The notes under the pieces: generated by a model
Told to the model about the DNA's origin: nothing
Databases searched by the model: none
The model's input: only the letters and a program-made list of their open reading frames with translations
Shown here: positions 14,173 to 16,235 of the stretch, piece by piece
Numbering within the stretch: position 1 is the stretch's first letter
Layout: each line of letters opens with the position of its first letter
Made by a program: the position numbers and the translations under genes
NCBI RefSeq assembly: GCF_005771675.1
Contig: NZ_VAJM01000008.1
Span: 248,001-312,000, forward strand
Source: Hymenobacter jeollabukensis
GTDB taxonomy: Bacteria > Bacteroidota > Bacteroidia > Cytophagales > Hymenobacteraceae
Reading direction: 5' to 3'
DNA: 64,000 nt

Positions 14173-15228
14173 ATGAAGCAAGCATCCTCCCGTTCCACCT
14201 GGCTGAAGGCCGCCGGCATCGGCGCCGCCGTGGCCGCCGCCGCGCTCTGGGCCAACCGCCGCGGCTCCTACGACCTGCGCGGCCGCGTCGTGCTCATCAC
14301 CGGCGGCTCGCGCGGCCTCGGGCTGGTGCTGGCCCGGCAGGCCGCCGCTGAGGGCGCCAAAGTCGCCATCTGCGCCCGCGACGCCGACGAGCTGGAGCGC
14401 GCCCGCCAGGAAGTGGTCGACAGCGGTGCCGCGCAGGTGCTCACCTTCGTGCGCGACCTGGCCGACGAAACCGCCGTGCGCACCCTCGTCAGCGAAGTGC
14501 GCCAGCAGCTCGGCCCCATCGACGTGCTCATCAACAACGCGGGCATCATCACCGGCGGCCCGCTAGAGCACATGGACGTGCGCGACTATCAGGAAACCAT
14601 GGACATCCATTTCTGGGCCGCCCTGCACGCCATGTACGCGGTGCTGCCCGAGATGAAAAAGCGCCGCGAGGGCCGCATCATCAACATTGCCTCGGTGGGC
14701 GGGAAGGTATCGGTGCCGCACCTGGCGCCCTACTGCGCCAGCAAATTCGCCTTGGTGGGCCTCTCCGAGGGTTTTCGGGCCGAGCTGCTGCGCTACGGCG
14801 TGTACGTCACCACGGTATGCCCGGGGCTGATGCGCACCGGCTCGGCCCGGCACGCGGTGGTGAAGGGCCAGCACCTGCTGGAATTCGCCTGGTTTATGCT
14901 CTCCGACTCCTTGCCAGCCCTCACCGTCAGCGCCGAGTACGCCGCCCGGCAGATCTGGAACGCCGCCCGCCGCGGCGACGCCGAGCTGATTCTGGGTGTG
15001 CCCGCCAAGCTGATTTCGCTGCTGCACGGCGTGGCGCCCGGCTCGGTGGCCAACCTGATGAGCTGGGTGAACCGCACCCTGCCCGACGCCACCGGGCCCG
15101 CCGGCGACGTGCGCCGCCGCGGCTTCGAAAGCGAGTCGGAGGTGACGGACTCGTGGCTGACGGGCCTTACCCGCCAGGCCGAGCGCGACAACAACCAGTT
15201 GAACAACCACCCGCCGTACCCGGCCTAA
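14173..15228 (+). CDS. SDR-family oxidoreductase with N-terminal membrane anchor
   Basis: 351 residues. A hydrophobic N-terminus (AAGIGAAVAAAALWA) precedes a classical short-chain dehydrogenase domain: cofactor motif GGSRGLG (44-50), NNAG (121-124), and catalytic Ser174, Tyr187 and Lys191 (YCASK). An Arg after the Gly-rich loop and CARD at the end of the second strand fit NADP(H) preference. A C-terminal extension of about 100 residues follows. Substrate unknown; anchored SDRs often act on lipids. It is followed by the attenuator of the hydroxylase gene. Confidence 0.9.
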   Translation: MKQASSRSTWLKAAGIGAAVAAAALWANRRGSYDLRGRVVLITGGSRGLGLVLARQAAAEGAKVAICARDADELERARQEVVDSGAAQVLTFVRDLADETAVRTLVSEVRQQLGPIDVLINNAGIITGGPLEHMDVRDYQETMDIHFWAALHAMYAVLPEMKKRREGRIINIASVGGKVSVPHLAPYCASKFALVGLSEGFRAELLRYGVYVTTVCPGLMRTGSARHAVVKGQHLLEFAWFMLSDSLPALTVSAEYAARQIWNAARRGDAELILGVPAKLISLLHGVAPGSVANLMSWVNRTLPDATGPAGDVRRRGFESESEVTDSWLTGLTRQAERDNNQLNNHPPYPA

Positions 15229-15287: not shown

Positions 15288-15295
15288 CATCTTTG
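15288..15295 (+). promoter_or_regulatory. -7 promoter box of the leader-phhA transcript
   Basis: CATCTTTG, one mismatch from TAnnTTTG, 4 nt before the leader ORF ATG at 15300. The start site would fall at or next to the leader start codon. Confidence 0.5.
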
Positions 15296-15299
15296 TGCC

Positions 15300-15401
15300 A
15301 TGCTCACCCGCTTTTCGTCGCGCTATTATTACCGCTCCTGCCAGCCCACCGGCTTCGGCAGTGGTCGTGTATGCGCGACGGCACCCGAGCAGACGACGTA
15401 A
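15300..15401 (+). CDS. Leader peptide of phenylalanine hydroxylase, 3 consecutive Tyr codons
   Basis: 33-codon ORF beginning MLTRFSSRYYYRSC, with Tyr codons 9-11 (tat tat tac, 15324-15332) and Phe codons 5 and 19. It starts right after a -7 box, ends 28 nt before a perfect intrinsic terminator, and lies directly upstream of the gene that makes tyrosine from phenylalanine. These are the parts of a classical translation-coupled attenuator. Ribosome stalling at the Tyr codons when Tyr-tRNA is scarce would be expected to prevent termination. The peptide itself probably has no other function. Inference from layout; no experimental support is known to me. Confidence 0.65.
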   Translation: MLTRFSSRYYYRSCQPTGFGSGRVCATAPEQTT

Positions 15402-15429
15402 CGTCGCCGCCAGGAACCGCTTCATACCC

Positions 15430-15467
15430 GCCCCTCTCCGATAGCCGGAGAGGGGCTTTTTGTTTTT
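15430..15467 (+). terminator. Attenuator terminator upstream of phhA
   Basis: Perfect 11-bp GC-rich stem (15430-15440 with 15446-15456), 5-nt loop, then TTTTTGTTTTT. It lies 24 bp before the hydroxylase ATG and after the leader ORF, so it can only act on the phhA transcript. A candidate competing helix is 15363-15373 with 15423-15433 (9 of 11 pairs), which would take up the first bases of the terminator arm. Confidence 0.85.
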
Positions 15468-15491
15468 CACCCCTTCCAAATCATCCGAGCC

Positions 15492-16235
15492 ATGACCCTG
15501 CTCCAACAACACTACGATCAGTACACCGCCGAGGACCGCCACGTGTGGCAGCTGCTCTTCGAACGCCAGTTGCAAGCCCTGCCCGGCCGCGCCGCTCCCG
15601 AGTTTATGGAGGGCCTGGCCCGCATCGGCTTCACCGCCGACCAGATTCCGGATTTCCGCCAGACCAACCAGGTGCTGCGCCGCCTCACCGGCTGGGAGCT
15701 GGTGGCCGTGCCCGGCATCGTCGACGACGCGGTGTTTTTCGGGCTGCTGGCGGCCCGGCAGTTTCCGGCTACCACCTGGCTGCGCAAGCTCGCCGAGCTG
15801 GACTACCTGGAAGAGCCCGACATGTTCCACGACGTGTTCGGCCACGTGCCCTTGCTCACCAACCCGGCGTTTGCGCGCTTTCTGCACCAGCTCGGCCACA
15901 TCGGCCTGCGCCACGCCGCCGACCCGGCCGCCGTGGAGCTGCTGTCCCGGCTCTACTGGTTTACGGTGGAGTTCGGCCTGATTCGCGACGCGGGCAGCGG
16001 CGCGGCGCGCATCTACGGGGCGGGCATCCTCTCCTCGGCCGGTGAAACGCGCTACAGCCTCGGCCCCGAGCCCCGGCGGCACTCGTTTGCGGTTGAAAAC
16101 GTGCTCGACACGGCCTTCCGCAAGGACGTGTTCCAGACCGACTACTTCGTGCTCGATTCGCTCGACCAACTGTTCGATACCCTGCCCGAGGTGCAGCGCC
16201 AGCTGCGCGCGGTTTCGATAGGAGTGGAGGTCTGA
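15492..16235 (+). CDS. phhA: Phenylalanine 4-monooxygenase
   Basis: 247 residues, the size of bacterial monodomain phenylalanine hydroxylases. It oxidises L-Phe to L-Tyr with O2 and a tetrahydropterin. The non-heme iron ligands are visible: His113 and His118 in MFHDVFGHVP and Glu160 in YWFTVEFGL. The pterin/Phe pocket segment around YGAGILSS is also present. No regulatory ACT domain is present; control may be at transcription through the Tyr-codon leader immediately upstream. No pterin carbinolamine dehydratase gene is nearby. Confidence 0.96.
   Translation: MTLLQQHYDQYTAEDRHVWQLLFERQLQALPGRAAPEFMEGLARIGFTADQIPDFRQTNQVLRRLTGWELVAVPGIVDDAVFFGLLAARQFPATTWLRKLAELDYLEEPDMFHDVFGHVPLLTNPAFARFLHQLGHIGLRHAADPAAVELLSRLYWFTVEFGLIRDAGSGAARIYGAGILSSAGETRYSLGPEPRRHSFAVENVLDTAFRKDVFQTDYFVLDSLDQLFDTLPEVQRQLRAVSIGVEV

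Follow-up and report, generated by a model that had tools for sequence, protein, structure and literature searches.

A putative tyrosine-codon attenuator in front of the phenylalanine hydroxylase gene phhA of Hymenobacter jeollabukensis and related Cytophagales

The 64,000-nucleotide (nt) stretch of Hymenobacter jeollabukensis DNA analysed here (contig NZ_VAJM01000008.1, positions 248,001 to 312,000; hereafter the window, with positions counted from its first letter) contains, in front of the phenylalanine hydroxylase gene phhA, a short open reading frame (ORF) with three consecutive Tyr codons, followed by an intrinsic terminator. We infer that this region is a tyrosine-specific, ribosome-mediated transcription attenuator which senses tyrosyl-tRNA and controls phhA by Tyr-dependent read-through, a reading to which we give a probability of roughly 0.9. 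Tyrosine and phenylalanine hydroxylase are, in our judgement, a new pairing of amino acid and target for such a device: neither an attenuator for a phenylalanine hydroxylase gene nor a Tyr leader in Bacteroidota appeared in the titles and abstract openings of the literature searched, with subscription journals mostly outside that search.

The leader region of phhA

The features of the locus are as follows.

15288-15295, + strand: putative -7-like promoter box CATCTTTG, which agrees with TAnnTTTG at 5 of its 6 defined positions (sequence)
15300-15401, + strand: leader peptide ORF of 33 codons, MLTRFSSRYYYRSCQPTGFGSGRVCATAPEQTT, containing ...RYYYRSC..., with the stop codon TAA at 15399-15401
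15315-15336, + strand: predicted segment 1, partner of segment 2 (15360-15381) with the ribosome at the stop codon (minimum free energy, MFE, fold of the 5' part)
15324-15332, + strand: control codons TAT TAT TAC, three consecutive Tyr (sequence)
15338-15361, + strand: small hairpin CTGCCAGCC-CACC-GGCTTCGGCAG within the leader, kept in the genus (fold and genus alignment)
15356-15377, + strand: predicted segment 2, the antiterminator 5' strand, with the core GUAUG at 15369-15373 (fold, duplex and partition function)
15418-15440, + strand: predicted segment 3, the antiterminator 3' strand, with the core CAUAC at 15423-15427, overlapping the terminator 5' arm
15430-15467, + strand: intrinsic terminator, hairpin GCCCCTCTCCG/CGGAGAGGGGC at 15430-15456 and T-run TTTTTGTTTTT at 15457-15467 (sequence and folding)
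15492-16235, + strand: phhA, phenylalanine 4-hydroxylase (aromatic amino acid hydroxylase), the presumed regulated gene (Pfam PF00351, E 6.1e-44)

The original prediction, made from the letters of the region, had described a 33-codon Tyr-run ORF starting 4 nt after a -7 box and an 11-bp hairpin with a T-run between this ORF and phhA, and both were recovered at these positions. The hairpin is a perfect 11 bp and GC-rich, and the fold of the region beats 200 of 200 dinucleotide shuffles (z -4.6). Segment 2 codes for the GxGRV part of the leader peptide, and an equivalent block occurs in other lineages. The best solved relatives of PhhA are phenylalanine-4-hydroxylases (E 4.8e-74), and the direct neighbours of the locus are an SDR gene and an LGT-family gene. 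In nine loci, that of the window included (L081), no Rfam family, T-box or other, reached its gathering score; the matches in the window all fall far below it (the best, Atu_C7, has 19.1 of 45 bits) and the T-box is not among them. The leader ATG (15300-15302) lies 4 nt 3' of the box, whose reference is the Bacteroidota -7 consensus TAnnTTTG (PMC9723704), and the leader RNA is probably leaderless, starting at or very near this ATG.

Conservation in the genus and beyond

A phhA orthologue preceded by a leader was found in all eight same-genus genomes (the window's own included), and in each of them the Tyr run, the terminator and the spacing are kept. The leader peptide is MLTRFSSRYYYRSC in the own genome and G006, MLTRFSSRYYYYRSC in G002, MLHLCQSQYYYYRPC in G005, MSRFRQSFYYYYPTC in G001 and MHLFSQSYYYYYPTC in G003, G004 and G007, with Tyr runs of 3, 3, 4, 4, 4, 5, 5 and 5 codons across the eight genomes. 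When these were aligned together with H. gummosus, indels within the leader ORF were whole codons only, and among the best-kept stretches were those of the Tyr codons and of the hairpin CCTGCC..GGCA, together with the block GG(T/A)CGTGTATG, the TTCATA/CTCATA before the terminator and the terminator base. A lack of conserved Tyr codons and terminator before phhA orthologues had been named beforehand as refuting the idea; both proved conserved in all eight genus genomes and in many other records.

These other records come from a survey of the 80 nearest phhA records, by title mostly Cytophagales and some only Bacteroidetes or Bacteroidia, 79 of which had upstream DNA (L074 was left out). An ATG ORF of 10-60 codons with at least four Tyr in six codons was present in 29 of the 79 upstream regions, and in none of ten dinucleotide shuffles or on the reverse strand. 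Applied to other residues, the same rule picked out 3 regions each for Ala and His, 1 for Ile and none for any of the remaining 16; relaxed to three of six, it gave Tyr 33, Leu 18 and His 17, with a shuffle mean of 1.0. The flanks of the leaders vary widely, as exemplified by MTNMNSKYYYYYYYRITPFGVGVVCS in Fulvivirga and MNFTHNTYYYYYQAPKGIGNGSVMHMM in Marivirga; further runs are RYYAYAYYAP (a second Hymenobacter type), AYYYHYYHNP (Roseivirga), YSYYSYYYRYY (Pontibacter) and YHSYYYHYF (Echinicola, two species of which carry a Tyr leader, L057 and L070). Of 41 rows with a Tyr leader, a script detected a terminator behind the leader stop in 35, and inspection by eye added 5 more.

For quantitative tests we used 36 loci, leaving out L035 (a three-of-six match judged spurious), L002, L003 and L004 (same contigs as L084, L085 and L088) and L018 (same leader peptide as L016). 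Across these, Tyr is written as TAT 126 times and as TAC 60 times; since the two codons are mixed, it is the residue that is kept and not the letters. Together with the whole-codon length changes, this mixture lends indirect support to the view that the leader ORF is translated. A box close to TAnnTTTG stands 4-8 nt 5' of the in-frame leader ATG in 28 of the 36 loci, a distance which suggests that the Tyr leaders are leaderless. This would be uncommon for mRNAs of the phylum: leaderless mRNAs make up 5.5% in Flavobacterium psychrophilum (PMC9723704), and 5' untranslated regions shorter than 10 nt about 3.7% in Bacteroides thetaiotaomicron (PMC7366714).

We also scanned 1.53 Mb on both strands (the window plus 147 loci, some stretches duplicated; the loci were mostly fetched for phhA, their flanks serving as background) for short ORFs that begin with ATG, contain three Tyr codons in a row and have a terminator close behind. 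All 30 matches (26 without four duplicated loci) precede phhA or, in L019, an operon that ends in phhA, in which the leader MKYMNNIYYYYYRFKEIGVSGVCS is followed by an aminotransferase gene, tyrA and phhA in a row (families by Pfam). The scan bears on one alternative, namely that the hairpin merely terminates the SDR gene upstream (14173-15228), with the Tyr ORF arising as a chance frame. That gene does have the same orientation and ends 71 nt before the leader. However, leader, terminator and spacing travel with phhA across many genera in which the sequence upstream of the leader differs, and the combination of Tyr leader and terminator occurred nowhere else in the 1.53 Mb, so that we consider a chance frame extremely unlikely.

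Other leaders were seen in front of phhA as well. In L033, L041, L054 and L102-L105 a His-rich, Tyr-poor leader MNPTPRT(Y/F)(V/I)HHS.. occupies the same position (in L102 it is MNQTYHSYSHYHTSFWG), and in L165 and L168 the leader MMKCKTTTYYHSNKYYHYSFFFRGMRQ.. contains both Tyr and Phe runs, with L168 starting MKCKTTTYYHS. In a phylum sample, 49 of 296 genomes matched the hydroxylase at E 1e-30; among 29 hydroxylase loci from this sample, 7 of them from the same order, a Tyr-run leader was present only in L108, which comes from outside the order.

Predicted mutually exclusive structures

The antiterminator duplex of the window, as computed with RNAduplex, comprises 17 pairs between 15356-15377 and 15418-15440 and runs along the whole terminator 5' arm. 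The helix originally proposed, 15363-15373 with 15423-15433, is real in its 9 of 11 pairs but was drawn too short. When the ribosome is placed on the last Tyr codon and the RNA ends just beyond the terminator 5' arm, where the polymerase would stand, the MFE structure pairs GUAUG with CAUAC in the window's locus (L081) as well as in L086 and L085. With the ribosome at the stop codon, the MFE structure of L081 instead pairs 15315-15336, which holds the Tyr and Arg codons, with 15360-15381, and the terminator is left free; this helix between segments 1 and 2 was seen by MFE, without a shuffle control, in the window and three genus relatives. Equivalent antiterminators elsewhere are GGAAUCGG..GGUAGUGUU with AUAUACC..CCGGUUCC in Marivirga, GAAUCGG..UUGUAUGU with ACAUAUAA..CCGGUUC in L014, and GGAA.UGGGC..UAUUG with CAAUA..GCCC.UUCC in L075. 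Many loci from other genera have their leader stop within the antiterminator strand or a short way behind it.

The pairing of the pre-terminator region and terminator 5' arm with the leader was then quantified by partition function in the 36 loci. A stalled ribosome gave a mean of 0.58, compared with 0.34 in shuffled leaders and 0.05 once the ribosome had reached the stop. Pairing in the stalled state exceeded the shuffled mean in 35 of the 36 loci; the comparison with shuffles was individually under the 0.05 level in 19, and pairing exceeded the replete state in all 36, with a combined z of 4.7 over 12 lineage groups that we defined ourselves. The terminator covaries strongly in a 16-row alignment: 98.5% of its cells are paired, 5 of its 9 pairs have changed on both sides, and its covariation score was reached in 0 of 500 shuffles. 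In these models the antiterminator excludes the terminator and would be favoured by a stall on Tyr, a case that is comparative and does not come from the window alone.

The leader could in principle act on phhA by another output, such as translation coupling, Rho, or a peptide or small RNA working in trans, and a trans-acting leader peptide is described for Sinorhizobium (PMC7298713). Against this, many lineages combine a strong intrinsic terminator with a helix that competes with it at the same position, and transcription attenuation needs no further parts; we regard the other outputs as unlikely.

The role of PhhA

Bacterial PhhA is usually described as catabolic (PMC7311316), and it might be argued that the enzyme serves phenylalanine catabolism and that the Tyr codons signal only amino acid shortage. 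The genomes speak against this. Homogentisate dioxygenase (HgmA) was found in none of the eight genus genomes; pterin carbinolamine dehydratase and chorismate synthase are present in all eight. TyrA exceeded the cut-off in four of them (the own genome, G002, G005 and G006), and PheA was found in the same four and not in the others. Neither enzyme was thus found above the cut-off in G001, G003, G004 and G007 (G004 has one TyrA match below it), all of which retain phhA and a leader, with Tyr runs of 4, 5, 5 and 5 codons. Unless unrelated enzymes take over, these four would be expected to require phenylalanine and to depend on PhhA alone for tyrosine. Where the leader is absent, phhA can belong to an aromatic operon: it stands behind trpB-trpA-aroG in L021, and in L017, L020 and L025 it follows a DAHP synthase gene directly. 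In L019 it stands behind the aminotransferase gene and tyrA. Fitness data for the phenylalanine hydroxylase of Echinicola point to tyrosine synthesis by this enzyme, and the authors proposed two routes to tyrosine in that organism (PMC7311316); the Tyr leaders of L057 and L070 belong to two other Echinicola species. The notion that PhhA here works as a tyrosine-making enzyme, already part of the original prediction, is thus backed by genome content, operon context and published data, and a catabolic role appears highly improbable. Taken together with its family, this evidence makes PhhA look anabolic, i.e. the target enzyme makes the amino acid that is sensed.

Among 49 further genomes, some of them metagenome-assembled, TyrA was below the cut-off in 16. 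A Tyr leader was present in 13 of these 16 versus 15 of the 33 with TyrA (Fisher p 0.03, ignoring phylogeny, counting L035 as having no leader and with one of the 33 barely over the cut-off), so the link between TyrA loss and leader presence is statistically weak. PheA was missing in 9 of the 49, 8 of which belong to the 16 without TyrA over the cut-off.

As a separate observation, the pheA gene in the genome of the window is divided between two reading frames (G000:C13:32681-33198), by a frameshift or an assembly error; if the split is real, this strain too may be losing phenylalanine synthesis.

Related leaders on other operons

The same genus carries leaders of a similar kind in front of other amino acid genes. 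A His leader with four to five consecutive His codons precedes hisG in all eight genus genomes (L131-L138); its ORF ends GHAGHHHHHSS(P/T)GEE and reads GHAGHHHHSSQEE in one genome. Before the pheA-aminotransferase-tyrA operon, both genomes examined (L139, G000:C13:30000-36500, and L140) have a tandem pair of Phe/Tyr leader ORFs, which in the own genome are MLTSQASTFFSYYFYYAHA and MLRTACFFFGCYYCFYRKQRGPYCAV with the runs FFSYYFYY and FFFGCYYCFY. At nearby tyrA loci no Tyr leader was found within 1500 nt, and the Phe/Tyr leaders lie farther upstream.

These leaders bear on the possibility that the phhA attenuator senses a residue mix or slow translation in general rather than tyrosine as such. 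His codons are indeed intermixed in some leaders (YHYHYYY in Roseivirga, HHSYH in Algoriphagus), and those of L165 and L168 contain YYHSNKYYHYSFFF. Yet Tyr is the sole residue enriched at four of six (29 versus at most 3 of 79 regions), pure Tyr runs of 3 to 7 occur in many lineages, and because pheA-tyrA in this genus is preceded by leaders that combine Phe with Tyr, the choice of Tyr for phhA looks specific. A general sensor is in our view very unlikely.

From 16 rows of other genera we built an RNA model, with the terminator as its sole structure, which was run over 194 genomes of the order and matched 46 of them at E 0.01. Thirty of the matching loci were fetched. Six lie before phhA (among them L149, whose leader peptide is identical to that of the training row L014), six before DAHP synthase with FFYFYF leaders, one before chorismate mutase and two before a glutamine amidotransferase read as hisH, one of these with a His leader; the other 15 have no clear leader or precede another gene. 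Pfam confirms three of the phhA genes, one DAHP synthase, the chorismate mutase and both amidotransferases, the remaining assignments being our reading of the proteins. The leader before DAHP synthase is MLITAAIYFTFFYFYFRSENRIGAVYCLAKN or a relative of it (L151, L154, L155, L156, L158 and L159; the family of L151 is confirmed).

The phhA device thus appears to belong to a set of similar attenuators. The balance tips slightly towards a still broader view, in which Cytophagales share a common, probably leaderless attenuator cassette with a GxGxV-coding antiterminator strand, whose control codons are swapped per pathway: Tyr codons where phhA or aminotransferase-tyrA-phhA follows, Phe plus Tyr codons before DAHP synthase and pheA-tyrA, and His codons before his genes. 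On phhA, this cassette would have allowed several lineages to lose TyrA and even PheA and to live like animals, with tyrosine coming only from scavenged phenylalanine under Tyr-tRNA control.

In the eight genus genomes a conserved leader ORF with a terminator also precedes the second paralogue of the aromatic amino acid hydroxylase, which is 43-48% identical (L089-L096). Its leader is MLHQTINCNFTMYVQPLKGPGAVPLQTVWK in the own genome (L141, G000:C1:583000-589500), and L112 holds a relative with in-frame gaps. The leader lacks a codon run for any single residue, several copies contain an ATGCAAC/GTTGCAT-like inverted repeat, and no Rfam match was obtained in the loci scanned (L089, L141 and L142).

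Counter-evidence and proposed mechanism

Several results weigh against a Tyr attenuator on phhA. Even the three-of-six Tyr rule fails in 46 of the 79 upstream regions, the Algoriphagus records among them; where a leader is seen in Algoriphagus, it is His-rich with 1-2 Tyr and was not counted as a Tyr leader. The RNA model derived from other lineages misses the window's own element and genome. For the window alone, the stalled-ribosome folding that held across the loci is not significant: pairing is 0.55 versus 0.30 and is matched by 12% of shuffles (partition function), and the duplex has p 0.59 against shuffled sequence. Duplex energy has p <0.05 in just 12 of the 36 loci, and the own partner ranks first against partners from other lineages in only 7 of 36. 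Covariation of the antiterminator is moderate, with 70.3% of cells paired in the 16-row alignment; its covariation score was reached in 8 of 500 shuffles and the number of pairs changed on both sides in 117 of 500, and the given register is better than slides by 1 to 3. In the MAFFT alignment, the Marivirga rows have their first antiterminator block displaced, so the per-locus duplex and partition-function tests are given more weight. Moreover, when the RNA is extended to the T-run, MFE keeps the terminator in every state, including that with the ribosome on Tyr; the switch must therefore be kinetic and act during RNA synthesis. Kinetic switching is usual for attenuators. Finally, TyrA is present in the window's own genome, and PhhA may accordingly be a second tyrosine route there and not the only one.

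Under the attenuator reading, the RNA would start at or very near the leader ATG. With Tyr-tRNA charged, the ribosome would pass the Tyr codons and reach the leader stop, segment 2 would be tied to segment 1, the terminator hairpin (15430-15456) would form and phhA would stay untranscribed; in relatives with short leaders, segment 2 would probably be covered by the ribosome itself instead. With Tyr-tRNA short, the ribosome would stall at 15324-15332 and cover segment 1, leaving segment 2 to pair with segment 3 along the terminator 5' arm before the 3' arm is made. RNA polymerase would then read into phhA, and tyrosine would be made from phenylalanine.

Such a device has a clear physiological logic and an unexpected target, as it would tie an enzyme usually called catabolic in bacteria to a tyrosine-specific starvation sensor. 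The Tyr leader is an independent genomic argument for a biosynthetic PhhA in Cytophagales; it would give a regulatory reason behind the two-route synthesis proposed for Echinicola, and it predicts bacteria that are Phe-auxotrophic yet Tyr-prototrophic.

Comparison with known systems

The trp, his and pheA attenuators of Escherichia coli are ribosome-mediated (leader-peptide) transcription attenuators of amino acid operons. The phhA leader resembles them in its run of control codons, its terminator, an exclusive antiterminator, the pairing of segments 1 and 2 in the window and a target that makes the sensed amino acid. It differs in its presumed sensing of Tyr only, in having phenylalanine hydroxylase as its target, and in a start codon right after the -7 box, which makes it probably leaderless; in addition, in many loci outside the genus the stop lies on or near the antiterminator strand, so that the ribosome itself could mask this strand. 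T-box leaders sense uncharged tRNA. The phhA leader would do likewise, but its sensor would be a translated ORF, and it has no Rfam T-box match.

Leader-peptide systems had, to the knowledge of the authors in 2010, been shown only in Proteobacteria and Actinobacteria, to which PMC2965389 adds Firmicutes; the phhA leader would extend such attenuation in Bacteroidota, where the literature searched gave only hints. One of these is an attenuator predicted before the pheA-hisHb-aro-tyrA operon of B. thetaiotaomicron (PMC1173090, Table 7), which shares phylum and pathway with the phhA leader; it precedes a tyrA operon, however, and Table 7 covers tyrA operons, with no phhA named in the parts consulted. 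Another is the putative leader-peptide attenuation before amino acid operons of F. psychrophilum (PMC9723704), of the same phylum and with the same presumed mechanism; its main text, in which the word tyrosine does not occur, gives no tyrosine case. Also comparable are the His leader of hisG and the Phe/Tyr leaders of pheA-tyrA, which occur in the same genomes and, as likened by their leader ORFs, appear to be the same kind of device as the phhA leader, while differing from it in their control residues and, in the aromatic operon, by the presence of two tandem leaders.
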